In this document: one piece after another, positions 8,138-55,655 of the stretch
Layout: every line of letters starts with the position of its first letter
How positions within the stretch are numbered: position 1 is the first letter of the stretch
Assembly (NCBI GenBank): GCA_947172415.1
Contig: OX359192.1
Coordinates: forward strand, 2,978,501-3,042,500
Direction: 5' to 3'
DNA: 64,000 bases
Origin: Chondrosia reniformis
Taxonomy: Eukaryota > Porifera > Demospongiae > Chondrillida > Chondrillidae
The notes under the pieces: model-generated
What the model was told of the DNA's origin: nothing
Databases searched by the model: none
The model's input: the letters and a program-made list of their open reading frames with translations, nothing else
Position numbers and translations under genes: made by a program

Positions 8138-8345
<208 letters not shown>

Positions 8346-9059
8346 GTACAGAAAAATAATACACCGAAACATATTTGTATATGACTAACTATTAGTAAAA
8401 GTTACATACATGTAATCACATGCATTGGTGATAAATGTTGACTTATTCTTAATAATGTACCTTTACATTACATATGAAATCAAAAAGTGACCATGATCCA
8501 TCTATGACAAATAATAGATGGGATAATTAAAACCTCGAATCGATGTCTTGTAACTTTTACAGGCCTTGAATGGATTACCATTGACTTCCTAGGCAGGGTC
8601 ACCAATACCTTGAAGCATCTTGATGAATCTGACATCTTGAATCATAAGTGTTACACGCTTTGCATGGATTGCAGCCAAGTTACTTACGGATAGAAAGTGT
8701 ACAATGTACGCTTCTGTGGCTTCTTGAAGGCATTGCAGTGCATCTTCTTGCCATTTGAAGTCGCTTGCACGCGGATGTCTTTCCATCAGGATCTGCCTTA
8801 CCAATTTCGCAAATGGAGCTTTGCGAATTAGAAGGTGTGTCGTATTTTGGAAGTGCCTGCAATAACAAATTAAAGGGGAACTGACAACTAAATTTTCGAG
8901 TCCAATTTTATTACAAATATGGAAACATACGAATGTCTTACTCACGTTTTCGGGTTTTAAATTTGATTCGACCTTATACTTGAGAATTACCAGAGCGATA
9001 AAATCCGCCTCCCACCCGCCATGTTTTTTGTGGTTAAAACGTCATTGTTAGTTTTCACG

Positions 9060-9762: not shown

Positions 9763-12065
9763 TCATGTACCAAAACGGGTGGTGTGTTGAGAAATTGAAT
9801 CTAGTTTGTTGGGACGTGGCAGTGCTGCTATATTATCAGGTAAATTAAGTTCGGTTACATCTGAATCATCTAAGTTTGATGCTGCAGCATGAATTTGTGG
9901 ATCAACCAACAGCTCAAGCATATCATGTAGATACTCATACGATTTGTTTTCCTTAATTGGTTTTACAACCCATTTCTTGGTTGCCTTAGAAAACTCCAGT
10001 TTGTATCGTAGAGTATCATTTGCAGTTTTTGCCTGCCCCCGATTAACATTGTAATTGTGATCCAATATGGCTAACTCAGTGCGTATAGACATTCCCATAA
10101 AACTAAAATGCTGACGTTTTGGGCAATACTTGGTCAGCAGGGAATAGAATACTTCCAGCATGCCAGTGTGACAAAAGCTGCTTAACTTTGCTATATCCCT
10201 TAGCAAAGTTTCTTTTAGCACAACCTTTTGGAGAGCCAGGTGGGCACGGCCATTAGGTTTCAGCCATTTTATACGGCGTTGTGCATTGTCAAGAGATTCA
10301 TGCTCGCATGATGAAAAGTGATCATCTTGCCAAGTATGAACATTGACAATGTGGTGTACAATTGAGGACCATTTGGCAACTAGAACATCAGGGTTCGAGT
10401 TGCATGTTTTTGCCGACCACCATAAATGGTTGGAAATTGACTGAATCCATGGTAAAATGAGACTAGAATGACCATTTTTAATGCCCTCCTTGGTCAACTT
10501 TTTTGTGACACTCTTACTGACATGCCAAACGTCATATTGGTGAATGATGTTTAGGTAATCTGCTCTCATAACAGCAGATATTTGTCTGTGTCTATCAGTT
10601 TCTAAAGTTCCAAGGTTTAAATTAAATTCTGAAAGAACTTTAGTAAGGCAGCGTCTCAACAACTCTCTCTCCATGGTCCCTGAGGTCCCAGTATCAGTAA
10701 CTTGAACCAAACTGTAGTCTATAATGAGGCCTGATGAATTGTCCATCAAGGAGTAGGTGCAATATTTAGCACAATACCCAGGACTATCACAACGGCCATC
10801 ACCAGACACAATTAGGGGACCACTATCTCTAAGCATTTCAGCTATTACTATTTGGTTGTCTTTGTAGTAGGAATTAACTAATGGGAATAAGCGTGCTTCT
10901 TGTATTCTATAGAATGTACGTTCACTAAATATGGCTAGGTTTAGTAGGTTAGCTATAGTTTCTAGTTTAGTGTATGTAGAACCAGAGAAGAGAATGGCAC
11001 CTGCAAGTAAGAGATTACCAGCAGGTGTTCTACCTATAAGTGGTTGAGACTACCAATTAACTATGTGGTCATCAGGACAACTACCCTTGATAACCAGTAA
11101 TGTACCACACATAGAAGTGCTCAACGTCACTGGTAAACCACAGGATCTACAATGCTTAAAAAGGGGGAGCAAGGCTGATTCAAAAACGATGTATTTTCTT
11201 TGCCTGGATGGATCGTTTTGTAACTCGGAGTCCTCATCTGACTCATTTTCATCATTCTCATCATAGGTTTCATCCAGGGAATTACTTTGAAAATCCATCC
11301 TGTATATACATGCCAATTGCATGACATGTATATAATTTCTACAAACTAAGTATACCTTTCCATTGGCTCATCTGTGCTGGATGGTACTGAAACGCTATCA
11401 TCATCTTCTGTCTGGGTACGGCTGGATGTGTACTCCTTTGGGGCTACATGCAGACAGGTGTCTAATGTCTGTACAAAACAGCTGGTCCTATCTGGTACAG
11501 GTGGCCATTGATCTGATCAAAAAGGAAATTTGGTGAATTTAGTCAAATTGAAAAAATCACAAACATTAAACTTTGTGAAATATTCCTGCTATATGGTATG
11601 TTGTAAGACCAAGGTTTGCATCTCCATACCCGTTTGTACCCCCACTGTTTTAGATTGCCTGTCTTCCTCAATTGTTGGCTCAGAATATGACTGAATTAGC
11701 AGTGCTTCCTCTACAATCTCCTTTCTTCTCTTGCTCTCACTTCTCCTCTCACTGAGAGGTCTTTTCTGGCTGAGATTGGGCAACTGGTTGAAGGAAAAGA
11801 TGGTAGGCACAGCATCCTTTTCTAACCACCTTCTTCCTGGCTGCTGAAGAAATTGCTCTTGCAGGTTTGTACTAAAGCAGCTCTTACTAAAGTGCTCAGA
11901 GCATACTCTAGCATTGGGGTCATTAATGGGTACTTCTTCCAATTTCAGTGCAACCAACCACTGCTTAAGTAAAGCTTTATTTTTCAGAGGAAGACGATGG
12001 AAGCTTACCCCTGGGCAGTCCTTGTCTGTGCTGTTAGAATAACCGTAAGCGACACAGTAGGGCAT
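9763..12065 (-). CDS. Kolobok-like transposase with N-terminal THAP domain
   Basis: Minus strand, in order: THAP domain (12065 to about 11600) with MPYCVAYGYSN, the central W and CSEHF, a linker exon (about 11515-11345), then a long exon from about 11302 to 9763. The catalytic part has NLLLAGAILFSGSTYTK, SGDGRCDSPG, a TDRH motif, YDVWHVSKSVTKKL and NHLWWSAKT, all characteristic of this DDE transposase family. One in-frame TAG interrupts the long exon at 11050-11052 (after IVNW). The second THAP cysteine (normally GC) is Tyr. With these two defects the copy is probably dead. The assignment to Kolobok rests on THAP plus the TTAA target. Confidence 0.8.
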
Positions 12066-12782
12066 TGTCCGTGTGACCCAAACGTATGCCGTCTTACGCC
12101 CGCGCTACCATCTACGTTTTGTGACGCATCGGCCGCAAATAAAATGGCGTCGGAAATGATGACGTTTAACGACTTTCGACACTCTCTTTTTATTGATTGC
12201 AGTCAAACGAAGCGCCGAGATCACTACCAACGTTCATTTTAGTAAGTTTTATAACGATATTAAAATTTTGAGGGGTACTTATTTTTGGTGTCAGTTCCCC
12301 TTTAAGGTTATATGTAACATACTTTACCAGCACTTGCAATCTTTAATAAGAAATATTTAACAATCACTGCGAACAAGACAGTAACTATAAGGAAATGACG
12401 CTGTCGTTATATCCTTCGTAAAACTAATCTCCGTTACACTCCGCTAGTACGCAGGTCTCTACAAAATCCTAACTTTCTTCAATAGCTAGCCTACATCCAC
12501 ATTTAGTGCTGCATACAAAAATCTTAACTTTCTTCAATAGCTAGCCTACATCCACATTTAGTGTACAGCTAAGCATAAAACAAACCTGATTTCCCGCAAC
12601 GCGACTGCACCCCTAACGACCGGTCTCTCTGTCTTTTCTTGCTTTTCTGACCTCTTTCGAGGAGTGCTACTTTTTCTTTAACTGCTTAAAGAACCGTTGG
12701 TTTTGGGTATTTTCCTTTTCACTATTTCGTATTACGCAAAAACTTCACGTGGCATTCAACGATGCGTGCTTTTAGGCAATGT

Positions 12783-15318
12783 AGGGTAAAGCGGGGGAAA
12801 ACGGAACGCAAGGTAAAACGGAACACTTGCATTCAACCGACTCTTACGAAGCAAGGAATAAATCGAACAACTTCATATCGTAGGACACTTAGGTATAGCC
12901 TTCAGCGAATATATGCATGCAAAACGATTTGGTTAATGCGCACCATAACAAAAATACAGCGCAATAATCATTACTGAATAACTTGTAGCAAATGCTAAAC
13001 TTTCGCCGCAACCAACACGAGACATTCATTATATCTTTACAAAGACGAGTCACTAATGAAATGTTACTGACCGACTCATGGTGCCTGGAAGCCTTTGCAA
13101 TCCCAGAAAACACACTTCACGATGACGGGCAAAAATGATCACGTGACTTGCGTAGCCTACGTGGCGGGAGATTTAAAATGCCAAGAAAGTACATCAGGAA
13201 AACTTGCAGAGGTCAGTGGTCTACGGAAGCCCTAAAAGCGGCTTTAGCTGCTATCAAGTGTGGCACAAACCTGCGTAAAGCTGCAAAGAAGTTTGGTATT
13301 CCAGCTACTACTCTGCATCGGCATCACAAAGGTAAAACACCATGTAGCCAATCAAAAATAATAATTGTAATTAAGACATGGTCTGTAATAACATCATGCA
13401 GGTACAGATGTATGCAAGGGTTCAGGGCACCCAACCGTCCTCACTTATGGAGAGGAGCAGGAAATTGTTGCAACCTGCCAGGCAATGCAGGAATTAGGCT
13501 TTGGTTTTACTCGAGCAATGGTAGCTGAGGTAATTACTGACTACCTGGTCTCAACATCAAAACCAAACCCTTTCCACGGAGGTGTACCAGGCAAGGACTG
13601 GTGGACCCTGTTTCTTCGGAGATGGCCCCAGCTCTGTGTGAGGAAGCCAGTGCATCTCTCTAAGAAGAGGGCAGAGGGTGTCACACAGAAGGTTGTGGAT
13701 CATTGGATTGATTTAGTACAGAGGGTCTTGAAGTAGAATGCATTGGATAAATTGTCAGAAGATGAAGTGGCAAGCAGATTATGGAATGCAGATGAAACCG
13801 GCCTTTGTCTGGATGCAACATCCACCAGAGTGCTAGCAAGACGAGATGCCAAATCTGTATATGAAATTGGAGGAGGATCAGGAAGAGAGTACATAACCGT
13901 TCTTGGTTGTGGCTCTGCTGATGGCATCAAGTTGCCTCCATTTGTTTTGTACAAGGCAAAGAATCTGTGGGAGAGGTGGACAAGGGGTGGGCTTGCCGCT
14001 GCTCGGTATGGTGTCTCAGATAGTGGTTGGATGGAGGCAAACAATTTCCTTGACTGGTTCAAATGTCTCTTTGTGCCATCAGTGTCCCATCTTCTGGCAT
14101 CTGGTCCAGTTGTCCTTTTTGTAGATGGCCATGGCTCACACATCAGCCACAGCCTAGTCACTACTGCACACAAGGAAGGGGTTATCATCATGTGCTTACC
14201 TCCACACAGCAGCCACCTCTTGCAACCCCTAGATGTAGCCTGCTACGGTCCACTAAAGACTGTTTGGAAGGAGACATTGAAGCACTACAAGCTGCAAACG
14301 GCGGCTACTCAATTGACAAAGGCTGAGTTTCCTGGGTTGCTAAAGATGACGTGGGAGAAGAGTCTACTGGCAAAATATTTGCAAAGTGGCTTCAAGCGTT
14401 CTGGCCTGCACCCCCTGTCCAAAACTGCAGTACCCGATACAAAGCTCAGTGGGCCACAATGCACTGCCCAAGTGAGCACTCCCAGGCGACACAGCATTGA
14501 GGTCTTAAGTCAGTGCAATCGCATTCGGCCACATTTGACACCACTGAGGCTTCACCTCCGAGACCACTTTGCACAGCTCAGCTCCTTGTTGCCAAGACCC
14601 AGCACACTAGTACTGGCAGTTCTAAACAAAGGAAGAAGATCAGACCAGATTATTATGGTCAAGCACTAACATCAGACCAGGTCATAATGATGATTGAACA
14701 GAAGGAAAAAGAAAAGCTAAGCAAGAAGAAGTCAATGGGTGCGTGTATTTTGCACACACATATTGCCAGTTGTGCATGTACATCTGCAATCTTTAAAGAA
14801 TGAATACACTGCATACTTGTAGGCACACGGAAGAGGATTGGAAAGAAGGTATCAGTGGTTGCACTGACTGAAGGTATGTATGATAGCTATGCAATGTCAT
14901 GCTGATAGAATGATCCACTTCAGACAATATTTAATAACTAGATAGCTGTTTTATTCATGACCACTTTTTTATTTAGATGCAGAGTCAGAGGATGATGATG
15001 TATGCACTGCGTGCAACAACTTACATGAAGAAAACAACTGGGTAGCCTGTGATGGATGTGACGCTTGGTACCACTTTGGATGTACTAGCTTGGAAGCCAT
15101 GCCAGGAACCAAAGATCAGTGGTTATGCGAAGACTGTCTCTGATCTGTGAAGACCCTTAATTCATGCTGAGATGCACTCATTACCATCAAATTGCCACTA
15201 ATAAACTAAGAACTCAATCCACTAAACTGTAATGTACCTATAACTCGATAACGAATGCTAAATCCAACTGTTCCCTTGTGTTCCGTTTTACCCCGCCCGC
15301 CATTTTGACTGGAAATAA
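12783..15318 (+). mobile_element. Pogo-type DNA transposon with PHD finger
   Basis: The left end near 12783 (GGGTAAAGCGGGGGAAAACG) and the right end near 15295-15318 (GTTCCGTTTTACCCCGCCC) are inverted relatives, sharing GGTAAAACGGAACAC subterminally. The left boundary is set by comparison with CENP-A copy 2, where the CAATGTA near 25700 continues without this sequence. The right boundary is approximate. The transposase gene lies between. Confidence 0.75.
13178..15143 (+). CDS. Pogo/DDE_1 transposase with C-terminal PHD finger
   Basis: Exon 1 (13178-13331) encodes MPRKYIRKTCRGQWS and a psq-type helix-turn-helix ending TTLHRHHKG. Exon 2 starts at 13402 and covers a second DNA-binding helix region and the DDE_1 core: NADETGLCLDA, VLFVDGHGSH and PPHSSHLLQPLDV supply the acidic triad. 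Exons at 14823-14873 and 14977-15143 add a basic stretch and a PHD finger: CTAC, WVACDGCDAWYHFGC and WLCEDC before TGA. A TAG at 13734-13736 lies in frame inside exon 2, and the frame changes near 14500 before the basic region. The copy is therefore probably inactive. A PHD finger could read histone tails and steer integration; that is inference. Confidence 0.82.
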
Positions 15319-15443
15319 TATCGTGTATACGAGATGAAGCCTGGTACTCGTAGCAGCGAACGGACAAGATTGCTTTTACAGTAAGTAGATAGAGTAATAC
15401 TACCTCTAGTATTGTACAGAACAGTTTATTAATTACTAGGGAT

Positions 15444-18400
15444 CACCCGTAATATACGGACACGGCGTCCATTTGCATCAATGACGTAAGCAATCACTTC
15501 CGCTTCAGTTCAAGAGGCGCTTCCAAGTATCACTGGGGCGCTTACTGCCTTCTTTTGTTTGTTTTATAGCGGTTGATGGATCACCGTACGCTTTCCAAAA
15601 TCAGATGCGCCCGTAAGTTGTCAAGTTGTTGGCTGTGTCCCTCCAATATTCCTCTTCCTTGTCCCCTGATTTTCCATTTAAAAAAATACCGAAAAATTAC
15701 AGAGCACCTATACCGAAAAATTACCGAACACCTAGGGTTCAGGCGTTCTGTAATTTGGCCCGTTTAGGGAATCCCAACTAAATGCGGATTATAGTTTAAT
15801 GTTTTTTAGCGAACTTTAAGATCTGCAGTCACTTAATGTACATTAGATTCTGGTATACAAACCTAATATACGGACACAGCGTCCATTTGCATCAATGACG
15901 TAAGCAATCACTTCCGCTTCACCTACTATGTCTTTGTCGAGGGGCACTTATCTCCCATGGTTACATCGGGCGCTTCACTTAGTTTATTAGCGTTGATTGG
16001 GTCTTCACACCCCGAATCACTCTACGGTAAGTATATCGCCTCTTTTGACCAATTCCTCCTTCATTTTTGGTCCAGTTCATTTTCAGTCGACACTTACTTT
16101 CATTTTTTAGTATTTAGGTTCTACTTGTGTGTATAATACAGCATGCATGCGCAGCTATGCATCCTCTTAAGGTTTTGTTTTATCATTGTAGGAAAGGTTG
16201 TCGGGATGTATTGTTAAAAGTTCCGTTTATGGTTTTTCATTGGCACTTAAGTAAGAATTTCTGTGTGTCTGGACGTATTTATGTATGCTTAAGTGTTTGT
16301 TTTGTTTGAGTGCAAGCACACATACTTCTTGCCGTGCTTTAACAAGACCGTCTTGTTAAAGCACGGAATGGACCATTAGTAATTTTATATTCCTCAGATT
16401 AAGCTAAAATTCTGATTAATTTCTATTATCTGTAAGACACCTTTTGTTTGACCTCTTTATTTATTTGTAAGTGACTTTCATTGTTGATCTCAATTTAGTA
16501 TCTATGATTACAGGAAATAATAAATGTAAATAGATGTGTAAATGTAAAATTCTATAAATAAAGGAGTGTATGTATTTAAACAGGTTATTGTTGCATAATG
16601 TGTGCAAGAATGTTTTGAAATGCGTCTATTTTTGTAATCCCATACCGTTCCCTCCACATAAACTCGTCTAAGTAGGAGGGTAGTTGGGCTTCAGATACCC
16701 CCCTCATATTTTTGAATTTGATTTTTGCTCTATTCCAATAGCTCTCAATATTTTGTGTGTGGATCCCAGTCGGACCCACAAAATTGAGGCTGTGGTTTAC
16801 TGTTCTGTGGGCAGCTACATTAGGTAGCTGCCCAACATTACTGTAGGCCCTCCATTCATCTGACACAATTACAGTGCCAGGCTGCACATGTGCCTGAATT
16901 ATTGGCAATAGTGTACCAGCCCTTCGGTCAGGCACCAATTCCATGTACCCGAGGGCTGGCTCAAAGGAGGTATCACATAGGCCAAATACCCATCTCTCTT
17001 GTCTTGGAGGCCTGCCCCTATGATTCTGAGTATACATATAGTACGTGTGTAATGTTAATTTTTAATCAGCATTGTAGATGTAATCTTAAAAATGTAATTT
17101 TTTACCTTAGGTTTGTGGGTGAAGAGGGACTCATCGATTTGTACCTCCTTCCCTGGACCTCCAAGCAGGATCGGAGTGGAAATCAGCTTGGTGGAACAGA
17201 CCTCCCTCAGCCATTGGTAGACTCCACAAGCTGTGTTCTCTGCTACCTCAAGTTGGGCTGCTGCTGTTGTGACAGCTATTTCAAATGCCCACCAGTGCAT
17301 GAGGAGTAGCCACTTTTGGATAGTCAACTTCAACTTGGCGAAGAAACTCCCCTCCCGCAAGGTTAAACACTTGTGGCAGGCAGGACACCTCCATCTATGT
17401 AATAATTAAATCTATAATTTTTATTTTGTAATTATTATTTATTATTATTAGTCATTTTATTATTCTAATGTATTATTCTTTTGTAATTATGTATTTGGTA
17501 ATAAATTGTATATTAATTAAAATTGTATACCTGAATTTGTCAGAGATGTCATTCCTAGGAACCATGGCCATGCCTGTGCCACAAGGACATGTCTTGCTGC
17601 TGGCCAGCAAGCCTTTTGATTGAAACCAGCAGATTAGGTCATCTTGTGGTCCAAAAGCAACCTTACCAATATTCATGAGACATTTTTAAAACCGCTTAGA
17701 AAAACCGCCTTACAAATTAGGTATGAATAATAATCATATGAATAATGTTAATCTGTACAAAATATTGGAAATCAGCTCGACTGAAGTTATTATTCTCAGG
17801 CGATTATTATATAGTTGTGACATTTCCCCTCGATGATTGCATAACTCCTACATACGCGATTATATTGTAATTGCGCAAACTCTATTACATCATGCATAGT
17901 GTCGTATCTATATATAAGTAGTAACAATTTCACAATTAATAATAATTAAAAAAAAAAATATTTACAAGCATTTTATAGTTTTAAAGTTATTTTCTTCTTT
18001 AAATTCAATCTGTAAAAACATAGAAAGGTATATTATAGATAAAAATGTTCAAAAAAAGTGGACAAGGGTTAGGGTTACATATACATGTAGTGCTGTAACT
18101 TTATCAAATGGAGAGATATTAAGCTAAAAATTGCTCTCAGCTTTCAAAGACATGCATAAAACATATCCAAGGAGTTTTAAAAAAATTGATGTTTACTCGT
18201 ATTTGCCCTATCTCTCACCATACATTAGGTTTGTATACCAGAATCTAATGTACATTTAGTGACTGCAAATCTTAAAGTTCGCTAAAAACATTAAACTATA
18301 ATCCGCATTTAGTTGGGATTCCCTAAACGGGCCAAATTACAGAACGCCTGAACCCTAGATGTTCGGTAATTTTTCGGTATAGGTGCTCTGTAATTTTTCG

Positions 18401-18646
18401 GTATTTTTTTAAATGGAAAATCAGGGGACAAGGAAGAGGAATATTGGAGGGACACAGCCAACAACTTGACAACTTACGGGCGCATCTGATTTTGGAAAGC
18501 GTACGGTGATCCATCAACCGCTATAAAACAAACAAAAGAAGGCAGTAAGCGCCCCAGTGATACTTGGAAGCGCCTCTTGAACTGAAGCGGAAGTGATTGC
18601 TTACGTCATTGATGCAAATGGACGCCGTGTCCGTATATTACGGGTG
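15444..18646. mobile_element. Merlin (ISXO2/IS1595-like) transposon with long TIRs
   Basis: A 3.2-kb element bounded by inverted repeats of about 420 bp (15444-15866 and 18224-18646) that begin CACCCGTAATATACGGACAC. Inside the left TIR the outer 60 bp recur a second time at 15868-15925. The flanks match the interrupted CENP-A/PAM spacer: AATTACTAG on the left and TTTTTGCAACTG on the right are contiguous in copy 2 near 25745. I could not make out a clean 8-9 bp target duplication. The single gene is on the minus strand. Confidence 0.85.
16585..17676 (-). CDS. Merlin/ISXO2-type transposase, apparently intact
   Basis: Exons 17676-17531, 17394-17106 and 17025-16585 join in frame to 291 residues with normal splice sites. 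The N-terminus has a zinc-ribbon-like set: KTCPCG, then RCPACHKC. The catalytic domain shows D in QIDESLF, D in VIVSDEWRAYS and E in TQNIESYWNRAK, the DDE triad of the ISXO2 group, with NHRGRPP and WVFGLCD between. No stop or frame change is seen. Length is normal for Merlin. Together with well-preserved long TIRs this could be a recently active element. Confidence 0.82.
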
Positions 18647-18681
18647 GTTTTTGCAACTGTGCATTATGCCTGTTAAAACGT

Positions 18682-19154
18682 TTAAAAATGTTTAAAAATA
18701 ACATCTTCTGCTTCACTTTCAGAATCGAAGGTCCTCACCCTCACAAAGCCTTGGTGTGGGGGTCCAAACAACGAGGACAAGTTTTCTTCTGCCTTTTGAG
18801 CTTTCTTGGAGATGTCTAGATTCTTCCTCTTGCAAGAAAAACAGTGATTACAACACTGTAGCTTCCAACATACACACAAATGATATACAGAGGACAAGAA
18901 TGATAGCTACCCCTAAAGCTATGCCTCCGTGGTGCATCAGAGGGCTCTTATGAATACATTTTGCATCATGCATAAGTAAATACAGTACAATTACCATTAT
19001 TGTCTAACGGAAGACACCGGCATATAAGATCGTTTATTTTATTCTATCTGTCTCTCTTACAATGTGTAGATGGATACTTACAAGATTCTAGAACAAACTT
19101 CCAAATTTGGTTTGGCCCCATTTCTGCTACATAAACAGCACTTCCATCACCACT
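18682..19154 (-). pseudogene. PAM-like C-terminal exons, copy 1
   Basis: A 3'-most fragment on the minus strand. The exon near 19154-19082 reads DVSASGDGSAVYVAEMGPN then QIWKFVLES and a GTAAGT donor. This resembles the last NHL repeat of the peptidyl-hydroxyglycine lyase domain of PAM. The following exon keeps the membrane segment and the tail motif RVRTFDSESEAEDV but has lost most of the extracellular linker and changes frame. Among the three copies only this one keeps the NHL exon free of stops, but its 5' part is deleted. Confidence 0.6.
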
Positions 19155-19600
19155 AGCTGACACATCTGGATTCTAATGTGACCTATTGCTAGGTTGCTAG
19201 GCAACTATCCATATTCACTATCATTACTAGTGTCATGGGCATGATAATCACACATGAATCTACAAACGTGTGTGCTTGTGATGTGAGAGCTGGTAAGAGA
19301 AGTATGTGATGTTCAACAGACCTGAGGCCCCCACTCTTCCTCAGATCAGATGGCCAATTGAGCAAATAATTCATTTGTTTCCATGACAATTACTTTGCTA
19401 TTATTTAGGGAAATTGTTATTGAACTGTTGCTATTGTATTCTGTCATTGGACAGCAAGTGAGTTGGTTGGACATGACCCTGCTCTATTGTTCCTTGTTAT
19501 TGCTCCATTACACATAAGTGTTCATAACAAGCAATCTCAGCTAGAACATTCTAACAAAGTTCAGGCAATCATAAAGTATCGGGTGGTACCATGGTAACAG
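19155..19600. repeat. Segment shared with 26710-27110 and 48120-48545
   Basis: A roughly 440-bp noncoding segment, upstream of each PAM-like tail copy (opposite its reading direction). Diagnostic words are GGTTGCTAGGCAACTAT and GCATGATAATCACACATGAA. It forms part of the thrice-repeated module; the third copy is inverted. Confidence 0.8.
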
Positions 19601-19948
19601 TTGGTTGTGACTACTGTTCTCCTCTCACTTTGTCTAACAAAAACAGAGTTTGGAATGGAACTGCTGTTTGTTGTGCTGTGAACATTATTCCAATAATGAA
19701 TCAGCCAGGACCCTATCCTGTTATATCAGTGTTGTGTGAGTTACTAGTAATAAAATGTATAAGATTAGAATCTGCTTGTCTAAGGAATAATTATTTAGTT
19801 ATAGACCTAGCTTATAGCTTTGTCTTTTGACTTTTTGAGTTGAAAGATGAACAATCCAACCAGATTAAGATAAAATGTGAAATGGTATTTTAAAATTGAT
19901 CTGTATTGTATTATCAGTGTCTCAAGGCTATAATTTGATTTTTATTAG

Positions 19949-20542
19949 TTCCTCCATCCGTCACTCCAAACATCACAAGCAAGACTGTTATAGAAGGAAC
20001 ATCCTTCACTACTCCTCTGACTATAACTGGTGATTAATTTCCATTTCCTAGTAATACTGTTATAACTAAAGATGGAGTTGCAGTACAAGATGACAGGATT
20101 TCTGTTAATTCCGGATCTGGTAATGAAGCATCTAGCTTTACAATACAGAATGTTAATCGCACGGACAGTGGATCTTACACAAAATGTGTGACTACTAGAG
20201 CCGGAAGTGGTACAACTGTTGTCAACTTGGATGTGTACTGTGAGTTGCAATCGATTTCTAGACCTGTTAAGTTTATGAAGTAGTAACATCTTAAATGTAT
20301 AGTTTTCTAGCTATTGCATGAGTGTGTACTGTTAACAACAGAAACCTTTTTGTGTTTTTGTCAACAGATCCTCCACAATTCTCAAGTTTATTGAACATTG
20401 CACAAAGGAACACATTCACATTCAACTGTACTCCATCAGCTGCCAACCCTCCACCCAGTAGCTATGTGTTTGAGAGAGATGGAGTGGACATCACAGAAGG
20501 AGTGAGTGGATCCACCTTAACTGTCTCATCTGCATGCCATAT
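19949..20542 (+). pseudogene. Immunoglobulin-domain exons, fragment
   Basis: Exon 19949-20239 encodes an Ig domain: PPSVTPNITSKTVIEGTSF, then NVNRTDSGSYTKC with the conserved D-x-G-x-Y-x-C pattern. A TAA interrupts it after TITGD. Exon 20368 to about 20542 encodes the start of a second Ig domain (PPQFSSLLNIAQRNTF, FNCTPSAANPPPSSY) and is cut off where a dispersed repeat begins. No signal peptide or further exons were found. It resembles tandem-Ig surface receptors of invertebrates but is broken at both ends. Confidence 0.65.
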
Positions 20543-22556: not shown

Positions 22557-24791
22557 CTACTTCTTTCTAGGAGGAAGGACAGGCGGATTACCCTTGTCCT
22601 TCACATGTCTGATAGCCAGTTTACTCAGTAAAGTAGAAGTATTTAAGGAAAACTACATTGTGAGAGAAATAGAGAATTGATAAGTGAAATTTGGGTTAAC
22701 TAAATGTTTATTTTATTAAGTTGATTGCATCACAATCTTAAAATCAATTCTTGAAGGTACTCTACACTGGATATAATGTCTTGCAAGGCAAGCAATTTCA
22801 GAGTACGTAATTAAAGCAAGCAATAAATAAACATGTCTGATCACAACCCATAATTCTAATTTTATATAAGGAAAATGGTGAATAAGCATTCAAATAAACT
22901 GTACATAGTTTTGACCAACTTTATATTGAAATTAGTGGACTGTAGAGAAACTATAGAAATAACTACATGTGAGAAATCAAGTAAAACACCACACTCAAAT
23001 CACCACCATTTAAATCAAACTCTGGTTCACCAGTTTAGCCACCAGTTCTCAGCTATTGCACTCTGACCTACCACAATACCTCTGAATGTTACCCACCTAA
23101 ATACGTACATACCTGTCCGCAAGGGAGAGTCAGAAGGTCTCCGTCTTCATTAACTGGACTCTAAAGATGGAAGGGGCAGATTAATGACTCATCCAACAAA
23201 AGATATGCATTGAACACTATATTCCACACTAACAACACTCAATCAGTCCATCTGCTCAAAATACCCCGACACGCTGAAAGTACATGTAACATTAACCTTT
23301 CTGTAGTATTCTACTAGAGCTTCTAGAGACTTGTGGACTTTGGGTTCTTCAACAATAATATATTTACCAGAGCTTGTTTGGTCTATCATGTAATGACGAC
23401 ATCGCCCTGTCACTCTAAAGAGAAAAAAGCCAACAAACTGTTTACATAAGTAACAACTGCTGATAGATTACCATGACAACCAATATGCTATAATACGTAT
23501 ATATATAGTGACATGCTTACTGCTGCCAATTTGCTTCAAGTGCCACAACAAGTAACAAGTGTACAAACAAACCTGAAAGACAAGGTGTATCCAAATCTGG
23601 TCTCACTGACTCGAATCAAGAAGCAACCGTTTGGCTTATCTGTCAGCAGTTGTTGTGATTGACTGTAGAATGAGAGTAAAATTCACTAAATATTCTGGTA
23701 CACACACTGCAAGAGAAGGAGATCTACATTAAACCGTACCGTCTACTGATTATGCCATGGAACCACTCTTTTATAGAGCCATTGTTATTCTTGATTGCAT
23801 CAGTTTGTGTTTCATTAAACCACCTCTTAGAAGTAGCTCTTCCAGCCTTACCATACTTCTTAAACCTAGCATTTGGATCCACAGGTTCAAAATCATCATC
23901 AAAGTCATCATTCTAAAAGGGAAGATTGAAATGAATAATTCCAAAAGTGGTTGTTCTAGTTCTATTTGTTAGAGCACTATTACTTACACTCTCACTATCA
24001 TCAGATGAAGGAGGAGGTGTTGGTGACTTTGGAGTAGGATGGGGAAGGGTTGGCTCACAAGGTTCTGGTGGAATGATCTCTGATCAATGTGGAGAAAATA
24101 TATATACACAATGAAAAGAGTTTGGGTACAGATTGCTAATCTTAACAATGCAAAAGATTCTCTACCTATATACGTATGTATATACATAAAAGAAGTAAAT
24201 AATCGAAAGACACAGTCTGCAAGCAGAAGCTTCTGAAACCTCTTACGAGCAATGAAACAACGAACGACTACAAGTTTAGAAATATTTAGAGACAGCGACA
24301 GTATAAGTATATCTGAGCCTTATATATTTGTCACTTGAGAAGACAATTGCACTAAGCACTGTACTAAAACAATAACTAAATAATTGCTAACACGACATCT
24401 CTACAGCACTTAAGGAGAGATAGAGACGAGACTACTTACTCTTTTGAATATTTGCAGCTGCTTTTTGTACTCTCTCAAGATGCTCCACCATGCAGAATGT
24501 CTAGGTGGAAGTACTTCAGAAACACTTTAGTTTTCCCAACTTGGAAACCTTGAAGGCCTGCCTTGACACATATCAGTTTGCAGTTGGCAGATGTTGGGGC
24601 CATACCAGGGTCAGCAGCAAGGAGCTTGTAACTGAACATGGAAAAAAAGAAGGAAAACAATATTTTGGATTTGCTAAGAAGGAATGTGAACTTACCGATC
24701 AACAGACTCATCAAAGGGGATTCTCACAGCAAATCCCTCTCTCCTGATACGTGTAGTCTCCAACATACCAGTGTAGCTCAACATTATTATT
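22557..24791 (-). CDS. Unconventional myosin end followed by SH2-domain tail (truncated gene)
   Basis: Minus strand. Exon 24791-24696 reads SYTGMLETTRIRREGFAVR and PFDESVDR, and exon 24631-24440 reads YKLLAADPG and GFQVGKTKVFLKYFH. These are the converter end of a myosin motor. The second exon continues, one base out of frame, into MVEHLERVQKAAANIQK, like an IQ-region helix. Exons 24079-23988 (proline-rich), 23912-23740, 23662-23573, 23414-23297, 23160-23113 and 22652-22557 follow, all phase-consistent. They encode an SH2 domain: EWFHGIISRR, GCFLIRVSETRFGYTLSF (phosphotyrosine-binding Arg in FLIRVSE), HYMIDQ and SLEALVEYYRK, then DLLTLPCGQ and a short basic end. Read from ATG 24491 the exons give an unbroken 222-residue SH2 protein. 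The motor is cut off near 24791 at a duplication border. Confidence 0.78.
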
Positions 24792-24915
24792 ATCTACAGA
24801 AAAATAATACACCGAAACATATGTCTATATGAATAACTATAAGATGGGGGTAATTAAAACCTCAAATCAATGTCTTGTAACTGTTACAGGCCTTGAATGG
24901 ATTACCATTGACTTC

Positions 24916-25558
24916 CTAGGCAGGGTCACCAATACCTTGAAGCATCTTGATGAATCTGATTTCTTGAATCATAAGTGTTACACGCTTTGCGTGGATTGCA
25001 GCCAGGTTACTCACGGATAGAAAGTATACAATGTATGCTTCTGTGGCTTCTTGAAGGCATTGCAGTGCATCTTTTTGCCATTTGAAGTCGCTTGCACGCG
25101 GATGTCTTTCTTGCAGGATCTGTCTTACTAATCTCGCAAATGGAGCTTTGCGAATTAGAAGGTGTGTCGTCTTTTGGAAGTGCCTGCATTAACAAATTAA
25201 GGTTATATGAAACATGCTTTACCAGCACTTGCAATCTTTAATAAGAAATATTTAACAATCACTGTGAACAAGACAGTAACTAAGGAAATGACGCTGTCGT
25301 TAGCTATATCCTTCGCAAAACTAATCTCCGTTACACTCCGCGCTCCGCTATGTATGCAGGCCTATCCAAAAGTCCTAACTTTCTTCAATAGCTAGCCTAC
25401 ATCCACATTTAGTGTACAGCATAAACAAACCTGATTTCCTTCAACGCGACTGTACCCATGACCCGTCTCACTGTCTGCTCAGATCTCTTCTGAGGAGTGC
25501 TACTTTTTCTTCTAGAAGATTTATTGCTTGTAGATCCCGATTCTTGAATTCTAGGCAT
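24916..25558 (-). CDS. CENPA: CENP-A centromeric histone H3, copy 2 (apparently intact)
   Basis: Histone H3 variant that marks centromeric nucleosomes. Exon 1 (25558-25431) encodes a 42-residue tail starting [13 protein letters not shown] and ending GTVALKEIR. Exon 2 (25183-24916) encodes the fold: [71 protein letters not shown] and TAG. Total 131 residues, no defect. Loop 1 is three residues longer than in canonical H3, and it carries the DFxWQ tryptophan motif of CENP-A/Cse4 proteins; the tail is short and unlike H3. These are the hallmarks of CenH3. The intron is 247 nt. Transcription is unproven. It is the only one of three copies here with an intact start and full fold. Confidence 0.9.
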
Positions 25559-25779
25559 TTTGCTATTTCACTATAGAAACTCCTTTTTCTAATACGCAAA
25601 AACTTCACGTGGCATTCAACGATGCGTACTTTTATACAAATCCAGAATCACTTATGCTTTTACATAACCAAATCCAGAATCAATGATCTAAAAATAGGCA
25701 ATGTATCGACTTTCCACAAATTAAAAACAGTTTATTAATTACTAGTTTTTGCAACTGTGCATTATGCTTGTTAAAACGT

Positions 25780-26577
25780 TTAAAGATGTTCAAAAATAAC
25801 ATCTTCTGCTTCACTTTCAGAATCGAAGGTCCTCACCCTCACAAGCCTTGGTGTGAGGGTCCAAGCAATGAGTGCAAGTTTTCTTTTGCCTTTTGAGCTT
25901 TCTTGGAGATGTTTAGATTCTTCCTCTTGCAAGAACAGCGATTGCAACACTGTAGCTTCCAACATACACATAAATGATAAGCATAGGACAAGAAATATAG
26001 CTACAAGGATAACTACCCCTAATGCTATGCCTCCGCAGTGCATCAGAGGGCTCTTATGAATACATTCTGCGCTATAAGAAAATACAGTACAATTATCATT
26101 CTCGTCATCCAACATAACTTTGTGGTGCTTGTGCCTAAATCCATTCTCATCAGGTAGTAACCCACTGTCTGGAGTTGCTTTGTGGCAGTTCTCTGGAGGA
26201 ACTGATTGGGGGCACTCCTCGTGTATCTCTGTATCATTCACCATATCGTGATGAAGGTCATCCTCCCAATCTGCTTTAGGCATGTTTGTCTCATCTTGCA
26301 CCTTAACATTTTCAGAATTGTTATGAGAAGCTTCAGTTGAGTTGGGTGGACATATACCAATAGTACGGTTTCTTACTTTACCAGCATGATTGTCTAACAG
26401 AAGACACATGTATACAAGATCATTTATTTTATTCTATCTGTCTCTCTTACAATGTGTAGATGGATACTTACAAGATTCCAGAACAAACTTTCAAATTCAG
26501 TTTGGCCCGATTTCTGCTACATAAGCAGCACTTCCATCACCACTAGCTGACACATCGTGGGCTTTAGCAAAGCCACC
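25780..26577 (-). pseudogene. PAM-like C-terminal exons, copy 2
   Basis: Exon 26577-26472 opens GGFAKAHDVSASGDGSA, resembling the end of the PAM lyase propeller, including the His of the PHDIVAS-like zinc-binding motif, but two TGA codons follow GPN. The next exon (about 26395 to 25780) is open for about 205 residues: an extracellular linker with N-glycosylation sites, one membrane helix (GGIALGVVILVAIFLVLCLS), then a basic stretch and the acidic tail RVRTFDSESEAEDVIFEHL. Layout (propeller, linker, one helix, acidic cytosolic tail) matches bifunctional PAM. The stops make this copy unlikely to give full protein. Confidence 0.6.
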
Positions 26578-27112
26578 CTAAAAGTACAAAGCAGGCTGAG
26601 AAGTACACACAACGTACTTAGAAGATAACCTTTTCTATTACTTATGAATATATCAAATCATTACACACTCCCACTCTACACCTCATATCCACACCTCTGC
26701 ATCTATCATCTTGGATTCTAATGTGACCTACTGCTAGGTTGCTAGGCAACTATCAATATTCACTATCATATACTAGTGTCGTGGGCATGATAATCACACA
26801 TGAATCTACAAACGTGTGTGCTTGTGATGTGAGAGCTGGTAAGAGGGTATGTGATGTTCAACAGACCTGAGGCTCCCACTCTTCCTCAGATCAGATGGCC
26901 AATTGGCCAAATAATTTATTTGTTTACATGACAATTACTTTGCTAGGGAAATTGTTATTGAACTGTTGCTATTGTATTCTCGGACAGCATTTGAGTTGCA
27001 TGGTTGGACAAGACCCTGCTCTATTGTTCCTTGTTATTGCTCCATTACACATAAGTGTTCATAACAAGCAATCTCAGCTAGAACATTCTAACAAAGTTCA
27101 GGCAAGGTTTCA

Positions 27113-41907: not shown

Positions 41908-42873
41908 TTATTTTTGGTAATACTTTCTTAAGATGATTAATGTATCTTGTGCACTTGGCTTTGTCAACAGTATCCCAAAAGCTACAATTCCTTGAACAAG
42001 TTCTTCTTTGGTTCTTGGTTTTACTACTCTCCTTATGTATTCTTTCAGTTCATGCCACATGTTCTCAATGGGATTTGCATCTGGAGACTCCGCTGGCGTG
42101 GGCCACCAGTTTATTCCTCTTTCCACATAGAATTTTCTTGCAAAAGCTGATGTAATCTTCGGGTCATTATCTTGTATAAAACGATGACCATCAGGAAACA
42201 ATTCTTTAATCATTGGCAACAAAGTCTTTTCCAGGATGTTGACATAGGTAGGTGCATCCATACAGCCATCAAAAATACATATCCCTGAACGCCCCTTCTT
42301 GCTTATTGCTGCCCAGACATGCACCTTTACTGGGTGTTTTGGTCTAGGTTTGTATCTTGGCTTTTGGCCAGTTTTTGAACAACAGAATCTCCTGTGATTT
42401 TCAAGCTGCACAGTTGTTTCATCAGAATAGATGCAATCTTCAAAGGAATCTTCTATATTTTTCTTTGCCCAATCCAGCCTCTTCAATTTATTTGCTTCTC
42501 TTTGTGTTTGACAATAGGCAGCTCCGCGATGGCTCCATCCAAGCTCACTTTGACATTTGAGTATTGTCATTCGACAGAGTTTTTGTCCAATTTCACCCTG
42601 CAGTTTTTGTTGTAACTCTTTAAGGGTTGTTTCATCGTCTTCTTCCATTCTTTTATCTATGAAGTCTCTTATATTAGAGGTGAGTTTTGGTTTCCTTCCA
42701 TTGCCACCAGCATGATAAATACTTCCAGTGGATTTGTATTTCTTCAGAAATTTACTGATCCCTTGTCTGGATGCCTTCAAATTCTCATCAGCAAGCTTTT
42801 TTGTTATTGTTGGGGCCCTGTATCCTTCAGCTGCAAGAGCAACGATTCTCAATCTTGTGTATTCACCGAACAT
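41908..42873 (-). CDS. Tc1/mariner transposase, open frame
   Basis: A 321-residue uninterrupted frame. The N-terminus has a paired-type helix-turn-helix (RLRIVALAAEGYRAPTITKK, then GISKFLKKYKSTGS and a GRKPKLT hook). The catalytic domain has D in YSDETTVQL, D in FIQDNDPKITS and E in NPIENMWHELK, the DDE triad, with WWPTPAESPDANP typical of the group. Length is close to the usual 340 residues. I could not identify the inverted repeats, so the element borders are unknown. The intact frame suggests recent activity or recruitment. Confidence 0.9.
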   Translation of the reverse strand: MFGEYTRLRIVALAAEGYRAPTITKKLADENLKASRQGISKFLKKYKSTGSIYHAGGNGRKPKLTSNIRDFIDKRMEEDDETTLKELQQKLQGEIGQKLCRMTILKCQSELGWSHRGAAYCQTQREANKLKRLDWAKKNIEDSFEDCIYSDETTVQLENHRRFCCSKTGQKPRYKPRPKHPVKVHVWAAISKKGRSGICIFDGCMDAPTYVNILEKTLLPMIKELFPDGHRFIQDNDPKITSAFARKFYVERGINWWPTPAESPDANPIENMWHELKEYIRRVVKPRTKEELVQGIVAFGILLTKPSAQDTLIILRKYYQK

Positions 42874-43214
42874 AGCTTTATAACTGTCAAAAATGAGGTA
42901 AGTTAGCTCTTGAGTATGCCGAACTTGCTATATATCACTTGGGTGTTTGTTAATCGTCAGCAATCGGTTGTTTGGGGTGTTGATTTTTATTAAACATCTT
43001 GTTAACGTGTGTAAATCGTCAGCGCTTATTTTCGATGCCATTTCGTACGTAATTCAATCCAAGTACTATCGAAATTGCGTAGAAGTTCGCTCCCTTCCTC
43101 ATGCCATTTAGCGTGAACTTTGGTTCTACTTGTATTCTTTTATATGGTGAAATTTAGGGACCGAGAAAAGTAGTTGTAATAGAGCCAGTGGTTGTTAGCA
43201 CAGGTTTCACTGTA

Positions 43215-45355: not shown

Positions 45356-45751
45356 TCATGATTCACGCGCTTGAATAGAATGAATTGATGCTTTAGCCCA
45401 ATCCATTGATCCAGTTGTGGAATCACTTGCTCTTGGAAAAAGTGTTGGCAATGCTTTAGACTTAAGTCTCCGCTTCTTGCCATAGGGCAATGCCATCTCT
45501 TCTGCTAACAAGGAAGAAGCCTTATAGCAGTCTTTAGTAAAGTGTAGACTGCAAAGAACAGAGTGCTCAGTAGATCCAGGCCATTCACTGTGGTATCTTG
45601 CAACTTTCCTTGTCAACTGTGCTCTTAAAGCAGGACCCTTAGGGAATGTGTAAAGGCTATATCCACCGTCAGTGGTGTTTGAGCAGCCTCCAGCCACGCA
45701 ACGTTTAGGTATCGCCCTTAAGCAAGCTAAATTCGACCGTTTACAGGGCAA
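45356..45751 (-). CDS. THAP-domain protein, transposase N-terminus
   Basis: The 131-residue frame contains RCVAGGCSNTTDGGYSLYTF, ALRAQLTRKVARYHSEW and VLCSLHFTKDCY, the C2-CH zinc set of THAP domains with all ligands present, followed by LPTLFPR. It ends soon after, where the transposase core would be expected. It is the remnant of a Kolobok-type transposase. Confidence 0.82.
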   Translation of the reverse strand: MPCKRSNLACLRAIPKRCVAGGCSNTTDGGYSLYTFPKGPALRAQLTRKVARYHSEWPGSTEHSVLCSLHFTKDCYKASSLLAEEMALPYGKKRRLKSKALPTLFPRASDSTTGSMDWAKASIHSIQARES

Positions 45752-48663: not shown

Positions 48664-49167
48664 GGGTGGCTTTGCTAAAGCCCACATTGTGTCAGCTAGT
48701 GGTGATGGAAGTGCTGTTTATGTAGCAGAAATCGGGCCAAACTGAATTTGAAAGTTTGTTCCAGTATCCATCTACACATTGTAAGAGAGACAGATAGAAT
48801 AAAATAGACCATCTTATATGCCTGTGTCTTCTGTTGGACAATAATGATAATTGTACTGTATTTACTTATGACGCAGAATGTATTCATAAGAGCCCTCTGA
48901 TGCACTACGGCGGCATAGCTTTAGGGGTAGCTATCCTTATAGCTATCATTCTTGTCCTCTGCTTATCATTTGTGTGTATGTTGGAAGCTACAGTGTTGCA
49001 ATTGCTGTTCTTCTTGCAAGAGGAAGAATCTAGACATCTCCAAGAAAGCTCAAAAGGCAAAAGAAAACTTGCACTCGTTGCTTGGACCCTCACACCAAGG
49101 CTTTGTGAGGGTGAGGACCTTCGATTCTGAAAGTGAAGCAGAAGATGTTATTTTTGAACATCTTTAA
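48664..49167 (+). pseudogene. PAM-like C-terminal exons, copy 3
   Basis: The exon at 48664 reads GGFAKAHIVSASGDGSAVYV then, after GPN, two stops as in copy 2, so those stops predate the split of copies 2 and 3. The second exon keeps MHYGGIALGVAILIAIILV (membrane helix) but changes frame before the acidic tail; the tail SESEAEDVIFEHL is in another frame. Confidence 0.6.
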
Positions 49168-49397
49168 ACGTTTTAACAAGCATAATGCACAGTGCAAAAA
49201 CTAGTAATTAATAAACTGTTTTTAATTTGTGGCAAGTCGATACATTGCCTATTTTTGGAATAAAATAGATCATTGATTCTGAAATTGGTTATGTAAAAGC
49301 CTAATTGATTCCGGATTTGTATAAAAGCACACATCGTTGAATGCCACATGAAGTTTTTGCGTATTAGGAAAAAGAGTTTCTATAGTGAAATAGCAAA

Positions 49398-50448
49398 ATG
49401 CCTAGAATTCAAGAATCGGGATCTACAAGCAATAAATTTTCCAGGAGAAAAAGTAGCACTCAAAAGAAGAGATCTGAACAGACAGTGAGACGGGTCATGG
49501 GTACAGTCGCGTTGAAGGAAATTAGGTTTGTTAATGCTTAGCTGTACACTAAATATGTGGATGTAGGCTCGCTATTGAAGAGAGTTAGGATTTTTATATG
49601 CAGCATTAAATGTGGATGTAGGCTAGCTATTGAAGAAAGTTAAGATTTTTGTATAGCCCTGCATACATAGCTGAGTGTAATGGAGATTAGTTTTGCGAAG
49701 GATATAGCTAACGACATCGTCATTTCCTTAGTTACTGTCTTGTTCGCAGTGATTGTTAATTATTTCTTATTAAAGATTGCAAGTGCTTGTATTAATGAGG
49801 GACATTATATGATACGAAACAAATAAGAGAAAATTATAACTGTTAGTAAAAACAAGTAGGTCTATTTCGTGTTTAAAAACTCGTGGGTCTGCCGCACCCG
49901 AATTAACTCGAACTACTTGGCAGCATCATTGGGCTTTAATATATATATTCTTAATCCTAACGATTGAAGACGCTTCAGTGTCCTGAACATTATAAATAGT
50001 AACAGAAAAGCTTCGTTAACTAAAGCTTCCAGGACGCCTCTATTTGCAAAAACCATGTATTGAAAGTGTTAGAGTGAATTTATAAGGCCCCTCCAAATTT
50101 CACAGTTAGTTATTTTTATTATTCATTATTTTACTACCAAACTACCCAAAACTGACTGTATAGGTTTTCCAGTTTGTGGCTAAATGCAAACCATAATGTT
50201 AGAAAGCAGAACACGACTCAAAAACTCTGGCTAAATCTAAGACTTCACATTGGATTAGCCGTTAGAACACCACAAGGTGGAAACAACGAATGTGCACACT
50301 ATAGACGTGGTTTTACGCTGTAATATTTGTTAGAGTAACTTGGCTGCAATCCATGCAAAGCGTGTAACAGTTACTATTCAAGATGTCAGATTCATTAAGA
50401 TGCTTCAAGGTGTTGGTGACCCTGCCTATGGAAGTCAGTGGTAATCCA
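49398..50448 (+). pseudogene. CENPA: CENP-A centromeric histone H3, copy 3 (truncated)
   Basis: Exon 1 (49398-49525) is open from [18 protein letters not shown] to GTVALKEIR with a GT donor, nearly identical to copy 2. Exon 2 survives only from [15 protein letters not shown] to the end (50338-50448), and the stop is lost, so the frame runs on after GDPA to a later TAA. The intervening 0.5 kb contains a MITE (49850-50065). The histone-fold start is missing, so the copy cannot make a nucleosomal histone. Confidence 0.82.
49850..50065. repeat. MITE with GTTAAC palindrome, family member 2
   Basis: Shares AGCTTCGTTAACTAAAGCTT, TTAAAAACTCGTGGG and CGAACTACTTGGCAGC with the members at 46240 and 57895. 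It sits in the damaged CENP-A copy 3 intron and exon 2 region. Confidence 0.65.
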
Positions 50449-50689
50449 TGGAAGGCCTGTAACAGTTACAAGACATCGATTTGAGGTTTTAATTACCCCA
50501 TCTATTATTTGTCATAGATAGATCATGGTCACTTTTTGATTTCATATGTAATGTAAAGGTAAATTATTAAAAACAAGTCAAGATTTATCACCAATGTGAT
50601 TATACATGTACGTAACTTTTACTTATAGTTATTCATATACATATGTGTTTCGGTGTATTATTTTTCTGTACATAATAATAATAATAATA

Positions 50690-54125: not shown

Positions 54126-55655
54126 CTTCAGTCTATACTAAGGTGTGAAAAGGTAATTGGTAGGCCATGTGTTCTACCTTGGATGATCGGTATAAACTAT
54201 TACTCTCTATGCAGTAGTTTAGGATTTCAAAACCTGCAACAGTGTGACTAAAGTCTTGTACTGTTTAAAATACTGATTATCCTATGGGTCACTTGGATCT
54301 CTTTAAATTTGTAACTTGCACTGTGTAGCTAGTACTTGATTGTAATTTTAATATTATATAGTCACTTGGACCTAGCTCCTAAATTATATATATCTTAATG
54401 TGTGTTTGTTACAAGTATGCTACAGTCCCCTTTCATCAGTTAAGCAAGGTTCATATTATACTTAAGCATTAGCATGGCACAAAGCAGCCGAAGCAAACAC
54501 AATCCTCCACTATCAAAATTGCACATTTAATAAAAGCTTCAACCAAATGGGGAATTCCAAGAGGTAAGGCTTAGAGCCTGCTATATGTATGGATCTTGCT
54601 AATTCTTCTAATTAAGTCATCAGCATCAAATTTCAGCAATTTGGAAATTTTGACCGGTAAACCTTCATCATCAATTAAGCTGAATTAATAGTATTAACCT
54701 GGAACATACACAGAAACGTATATGTGTACAGTATATTATATATGACCTAAATAATCAAAATTTCGTGAAATATAGTATTGACACATCCTGTATATATGTA
54801 TATTTAAGTAGCTTCAGAGGTCATAGATACATATTTCAATCACACATACACATACTTGACTTGGAACAAATCGGTTAACATTTTACCAAGACTAATGTAT
54901 ATATTCTCTAGTAGAGTGGTATCAAACATTGTACTATCCTAAATACATAATCTGAGGACTATGCATCACCTTCAGCTGAGTAGATTGCTCAACTTGCTGC
55001 TGGTTGCACTTCAGTTTGAGAATATCCAAATCGGAAATTTTCATTCTCTGCACAAATGGACAATAAAAATAATAAAGTAACATACATATCAATACTCAAT
55101 AGCAACGTAAAATATGTAAAATGTTCATCATATAGGTAAATGGAGGAAGATATATATTTTCAAACCAGGAAACCTAAATTAGTTGTAATTAGTGTAATGA
55201 TTATCTATAGCCTTGGTAATAACAGAAATGGACTTTTTATTTTGGGAGGAGAATTCTTTAACCAGATACCATGGCACAAAGCAGCTCTTAGTATCCTTTG
55301 ATCCTGGCCTCAGTAGGTGCAAATGATAATGTCTGTGAACAACTCGTGAATCATCAAGCTACACTAACTGGACAAGCTATAAATCCTGAAACAAACTCAT
55401 GCGTTGTTGCATTTACAAAATGCTATTTATTAATGTACTGTTAATTCAACTTTGCAGACACCGAGACTGGACTTTATCAGATTTAAGACAAACAAAATAG
55501 GAGTAAATTAAATTAAGAAATGCTATTCAATGTTTAAGTAACAAAATTAACTTTTGATATAGTATACTAACTAAATATACGTACGTACATATAAATGATG
55601 CAATACAGTTTTGGCTTAACAAAGACTTTTAAAACTCAGTGTATTACACGTAGTC
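54126..55655. other. Stretch with dispersed repeat, no clear gene
   Basis: 54485-54780 is directly repeated at 63330-63680 (CAAACACAATCCTCCACTAT). A possible minus-strand exon at 55050-54970 reads KISDLDILKLKCNQQQVEQS after a TGCAG acceptor, but I cannot assign it. The right part is the upstream region of the collagen-type gene. Confidence 0.4.

Follow-up and report, generated by a model that had tools for sequence, protein, structure and literature searches.

The window, that is the whole stretch of 64,000 nucleotides analysed here, spans positions 2978501-3042500 of contig C4 (chromosome 4) of the Chondrosia reniformis genome. The assembly searched amounts to 117.38 Mb in 15 contigs, and odChoReni1.1 is given as 14 chromosomes and a mitochondrion, 117.37 Mb, in its published description (PMC12181767). 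At 25558-24916, on the minus strand, lies a two-exon gene of 131 aa, hereafter copy h, other copies of the same gene being designated by further letters. Its coordinates, its 247-nt intron and its 131-residue frame had been given exactly by an earlier sequence-only reading of the window. The gene is organized as follows.

25431..25558, minus strand: exon 1 of copy h, starting with the ATG at 25558 and covering the tail and the start of alphaN
25184..25430, minus strand: intron of copy h, 247 nt, GT-AG, phase-2
24916..25183, minus strand: exon 2 of copy h, the remaining histone fold, ending in GDPA and a TAG
24901..24918, minus strand: the TAG of copy h and the bases after it, which are coding (YGSQW, then a stop) in most other copies

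Copies a, d, f and i likewise keep the exon 1 frame open; d and f share the splice sites and the intron length of h, while the intron of copy a is 917 nt. The window also carries a 28-bp minisatellite of about 23 copies (1-645), a nearly pure ATT array of about 69 copies (8140-8345) and, on the plus strand at 55620-57626, Gly-X-Y collagen-type repeat frames followed by a cysteine-rich region, the second frame being without a Pfam match (E 0.001).

The only Pfam family named in copy h is Histone, at 94.8 bits; with a cut-off of 26.4 the match is not due to chance. The product is predicted to adopt an H3-type histone fold, aligning along both H3 and CENP-A. Three features by which it had been recognized as a CenH3 were all borne out by alignment with H3: loop 1 of the sponge copies is three residues longer than that of H3 from the same genome, as in Cse4; the tryptophan motif reads DFKWQ in h (EFRW in a and c) against DLRFQ in H3, with W replacing H3 F84; and the N-terminal tail is unlike the H3 tail MARTKQTARKS. 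Tryptophan in place of H3 F84 is described as a CenH3 feature (PMC3156773). Human CENP-A, Cse4 and CID all share with copy h the H3-type fold, a longer loop 1, a divergent tail and an altered C-terminus. They differ from one another in detail: the tryptophan before the alpha2 glutamine is found in copy h, human CENP-A and Cse4 but not in CID, and in the same alignment loop 1 is extended by three residues in copy h and Cse4 and by two in human CENP-A and CID. Over the aligned fold positions, copy h is identical to human CENP-A at 42/92 residues and shares 45/89 with H3 of its own genome.

A maximum likelihood tree was built on the fold region of 13 rows, namely six sponge CENP-A copies (leaving out b, which is broken, and i, which is partial), sponge H3 and H3.3, three CenH3s and two PDB H3 chains whose organism labels are guesses. 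The six sponge copies stand apart from the remaining seven rows with support 100/100, and H3 and H3.3 group with support 79/59. On this tree we reject placement among canonical H3 or H3.3, which the earlier reading had named as a possible refutation. Cse4, CID and human CENP-A form no single group with the sponge copies, which we count against a CENP-A reading; the phylogeny of CenH3s is itself described as poorly resolved (PMC3156773). Equally counted against it is the PDB single-sequence search with h, where the best 60 of 176 matches are mostly H3, the best being H3 and not CENP-A, and an H3.1/CENP-A chimera comes fourth. These PDB matches are what would favour a non-centromeric H3 variant merely resembling a CenH3. 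We consider such a variant very improbable, since the longer loop 1, the tryptophan, the H3-unlike tail and the altered C-terminus occur in combination, and since the matches listed from the genome hold no other CenH3 candidate. The fold, loop 1, the tryptophan, the tail and the tree together support CENP-A-type as the right name for copy h; a centromeric location of its product is putative, by analogy with known CENP-A.

Among the matches listed in the protein search with h, those outside C4 comprise just three H3 matches and two H3.3 exons. In the whole genome, 28 Pfam Histone rows were found, 7 of them CENP-A, 3 H3, 2 H3.3 exon rows and 16 others, none of the 16 being among the protein-search matches to h with E up to 1. 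Thirteen of these 16 (all but C2:8484287, C2:89134 and C2:92774) are H2B-like, H2A-like, one H3 fragment and one other piece. Three short Histone matches lie close together at C2:89134-92938, where the one at 91684 is an H3 fragment. As for the kinetochore families tried, Ndc80, an outer kinetochore protein, was the sole clear one (62.7 bits). CENP-C_C and CENP-N had no Pfam match in this genome and SANTA a single one below the cut-off, in what is a weak test for intron-split, fast-evolving genes. Scm3 likewise had no Pfam match here, and the same search matched nothing in control genomes; it is reported that finding scm3 domains in metazoans takes remote-homology methods (PMC13001451). CENP-T_C gave 10 matches, of which three are the H3 genes, one is copy a and six are others (5/6 above the cut-off).

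Copy h is not alone. Searching the assembly with the gene and its flanks as DNA query gave at least 27 matches, and with the protein at least 18. From the matches listed, eight gene copies can be told apart, every one of them within the 2.37-3.03 Mb interval of C4, and a single-copy gene is ruled out by both searches. Two DNA matches outside C4, on C9 and C2, are flank pieces of 43 and 48 bases. The seven copies other than h are the following.

C4 2369607-2370940, minus strand: copy a, complete frame, 138 aa
C4 about 2373325, minus strand: copy b, two stops in exon 2
C4 about 2398417, minus strand: copy c, exon 2 open
C4 2520355-2521012, minus strand: copy d, complete frame, 136 aa
C4 2754334-2754991, plus strand: copy f, complete frame, 136 aa
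C4 2987016-2991274 (window 12774-8516), minus strand: copy g, decayed
Window 8516..8873, minus strand: 3' part of copy g, exon 2 and 3' flank, open frame, GDPA then TAG
Window 12302..12774, minus strand: 5' part of copy g, with the upstream part, an exon 1 remnant (without ATG, with an in-frame stop) and the start of the intron
C4 3027647-3029182 (window 49147-50682), plus strand: copy i, broken

Four copies, a (138 aa), d (136 aa), f (136 aa) and h (131 aa), thus have complete frames, and the other four are broken or without exon 1. Copies b and c have a common unrelated sequence at the expected exon 1 site. In copy i, exon 1 is intact (ATG at 49398), the 5' part of exon 2 is missing, and a remnant resumes at 50334 and ends in YGSQW, then a stop. 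The claim that h is the only intact one of three copies therefore holds within the window, where g and i are broken, and fails genome-wide, a, d and f being intact on the same chromosome. Nor could we uphold h as the CENP-A of the organism, as a, d and f are equally intact, have a longer C-terminus and keep H96 and D117. A better CENP-A elsewhere in the genome, in combination with the absence of any transcript, had been named beforehand as what would speak against h; as to the former, copies that are arguably better were indeed found.

Could the additional copies be an assembly artefact, with alternative haplotypes placed side by side? Over at least 4.6 kb, copies d and f are 95-98% identical, and their introns differ by 2.4%, which could be allelic in a variable sponge. 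Yet these two lie 0.23 Mb apart in opposite orientation, g, h and i fall within 41 kb of one window in different contexts, and copy a is about 0.3 apart at synonymous sites. Moreover, the primary assembly is described as curated, with 4 haplotypic duplications removed (PMC12181767). We therefore hold an artefact to be highly unlikely.

The duplication reaches beyond the gene itself, and the unit around h can be delimited as follows.

22785..27105, minus strand: duplicated unit around copy h, with an upstream open frame, CENP-A, and myosin-like and SH2-like pieces

The locus of copy d matches this unit in pieces, at 85-95% identity, and the interval separating CENP-A from the myosin-like part is about 600 bases longer there than at h. 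The upstream open frame (25780-26433), which has a hydrophobic stretch and no Pfam match, is separated from copy h by about 220 bases. Directly after copy h, on the same minus strand, Myosin_head exon remnants (37.1 bits) occupy 24217-24784, a stretch also matched at d and f; beyond them is an SH2-like piece below the cut-off. CENP-A is not fused to the myosin-like exon that follows it, the frame stopping first. At locus a, of which 9.4 kb were compared, similarity to the other loci is confined to the gene and its close flanks. Copy a retains the H3-like states YLV, SDSN, TIM and MLRG, and may be nearest to the ancestral gene.

Other pieces of the family and mobile elements are scattered through the window. 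A remnant of the unit at 18647-20185, 94.5% identical to the upstream flank of copy d, is cut about where CENP-A should start and abuts one arm of a 430-base inverted repeat pair (15444-15873 and 18218-18646, 98.6%). Mutator-like transposase and THAP-domain frames lie inside the intron of copy g, on the minus strand at 9766-12104, and 45359-45751 holds a further THAP frame. At 13737-17061 and 41911-42927 there are several DNA-transposon frames (DDE_1, IS1595-type, DDE_3). Segmental duplication would have spread the CENP-A family over about 0.66 Mb of chromosome 4, and deletion and transposon insertion would afterwards have broken part of it.

The C-terminus of h, MLQGIGDPA, had been presented as a distinguishing feature, differing from both H3 and vertebrate CENP-A. 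This did not survive comparison with the other copies. MLQGIGDPA followed by a stop is the end of g and h only, whereas five extra residues, to SQW, are found in 5/7 readable copies (a, c, d, f and i), copy b being out of frame there. The longer ends read MLRGVDDTAHRSQW in a, MLRGVGDPTYGSQW in c and MLQGVGDPAYGSQW in i. Compared with known CenH3s, it is GDPA that closes copy h and GDP(A/T)YGSQW that closes most of its sister copies. Since most readable copies have the longer end, the C-terminus of h is a truncation at the TAG, common only to h and its decayed neighbour g, and a short C-terminus as a trait of the family is ruled out.

Of the 131 shared residues, 8 are different between h and d, and 10 between h and f. 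Position 96 is Y in h; a, c, d, f and g all carry an H there, as human CENP-A does at 104. At position 117, h has E in place of the D of these five copies, D117E being peculiar to h; and at position 118 it shares I with the broken copy b, the five others having V. H104 and the equivalent of D123 of H3 are important for CENP-A contacts. H96Y and D117E, together with the loss of about 600 downstream bases, fit a relaxed constraint on h.

Constraint on the family was examined through the coding sequences. Pairwise dN/dS was 0.26 for a-d, 0.29 for a-f, 0.26 for a-h, 0.24 for d-h, 0.39 for f-h and 0.55 for d-f. Between a and h, changes affect 22/88 synonymous sites against 22/304 nonsynonymous ones (p=1.7e-5, one-sided); the one-sided synonymous excess was likewise marked for a-d (p=2.1e-5), a-f (1.6e-4) and d-h (0.004), and non-significant for f-h (p=0.057) and d-f (p=0.38). 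On exon 2 alone some higher dN/dS ratios were obtained (a-c 0.77, c-g 0.77, a-g 0.71, a-h 0.47). In a simple neutral simulation, run without gene conversion, the frame stayed open in 18% of runs at 45 changes and in about 50% at 17. Open frames are therefore weak evidence alone, and the comparison of a with d and h is the better evidence of constraint; no more amino-acid changes than observed arose in 1.1% of neutral runs for a-d, 2.9% for d-h and 19% for f-h. Synonymous sites hold more than their share of the changes that set the a lineage apart from the d/f/h lineage, and since the copies differ mostly at such sites, the family has been constrained. Copy h is not obviously the working gene of this family. 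The aligned introns of a and h diverge by 0.11 against about 0.30 at synonymous sites (small numbers), a mismatch possibly due to gene conversion or to the choice of alignment.

Two interpretations of h have to be weighed against this background. That it is a pseudogene in the making, its function covered by a, d or f, is to us a serious possibility, though we would not call it probable. Its TAG comes five codons early, it carries H96Y and D117E, which are absent from the other readable copies, its downstream sequence is lost, half of the eight copies are already broken, and the f-h synonymous excess is non-significant. Nonetheless, its frame, both splice sites and 5' region are intact, the d-h synonymous excess stands at p=0.004, and the residues it has lost lie outside the fold; about half of the neutral simulated frames remaining open at 17 changes tempers this counter-evidence. 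Alternatively, the four or more intact, constrained copies of this clustered family may have split roles (for example somatic and germline), h being a specialised copy with a shortened C-terminus and an altered alpha2. Four intact copies and the constraint between the two main lineages would agree with this, and such role splits are known in Drosophila virilis (PMC9577544, PMC8200288); we nevertheless judge it unlikely, as h shows no sign of positive selection and has few changes (8 residues against d).

Altogether, h is very probably a CENP-A-type (CenH3) copy of a duplicated and partly broken chromosome 4 family, in which a, d or f is most likely the essential gene. From what is established for CENP-A in general, the product would pair with H4, replacing H3, in centromeric nucleosomes; the longer loop 1 and alpha2 would be used for recognition by the chaperone and for deposition, and the C-terminus for contacts with the kinetochore. 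The essential role would most likely fall to a, d or f, and h, still open, would be redundant or slightly specialised.

A sponge CENP-A as such is not new, as the CENPA of Geodia barretti has appeared in print, modelled with a candidate HJURP and H4 in a 2026 preprint (PMC13001451); being also a sponge CENP-A, it is likened to copy h by description only. CENP-A homologues are also mentioned for Hydra (PMC8141815). Duplication of CenH3, which has been associated with centromere drive and with a division into mitotic and germline roles, is reported for flies, nematodes, mosquitoes, cows and plants, Caenorhabditis showing 10 independent events in 32 species (PMC9577544). Caenorhabditis hcp-3L, Drosophila cid and the extra genes of cereals and cowpea are, as here, lineage-specific additional CenH3s with similar folds, some of them decaying (PMC9577544). 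What differs from those recurrent duplications is that here a single sponge chromosome carries a cluster of four or more intact copies together with four that are broken or partial, and our literature search found no published report of clustered CENP-A copies in sponges.

That at least four intact copies are clustered here is of more interest than copy h itself, and no single copy, h included, should be taken as "the" sponge CENP-A. Several intact and broken CENP-A copies on one sponge chromosome would open the ideas of centromere drive and role splitting to testing in an early-branching animal; if the roles are indeed split, the specialisation of CenH3 paralogues would be extended to an early-branching animal lineage.
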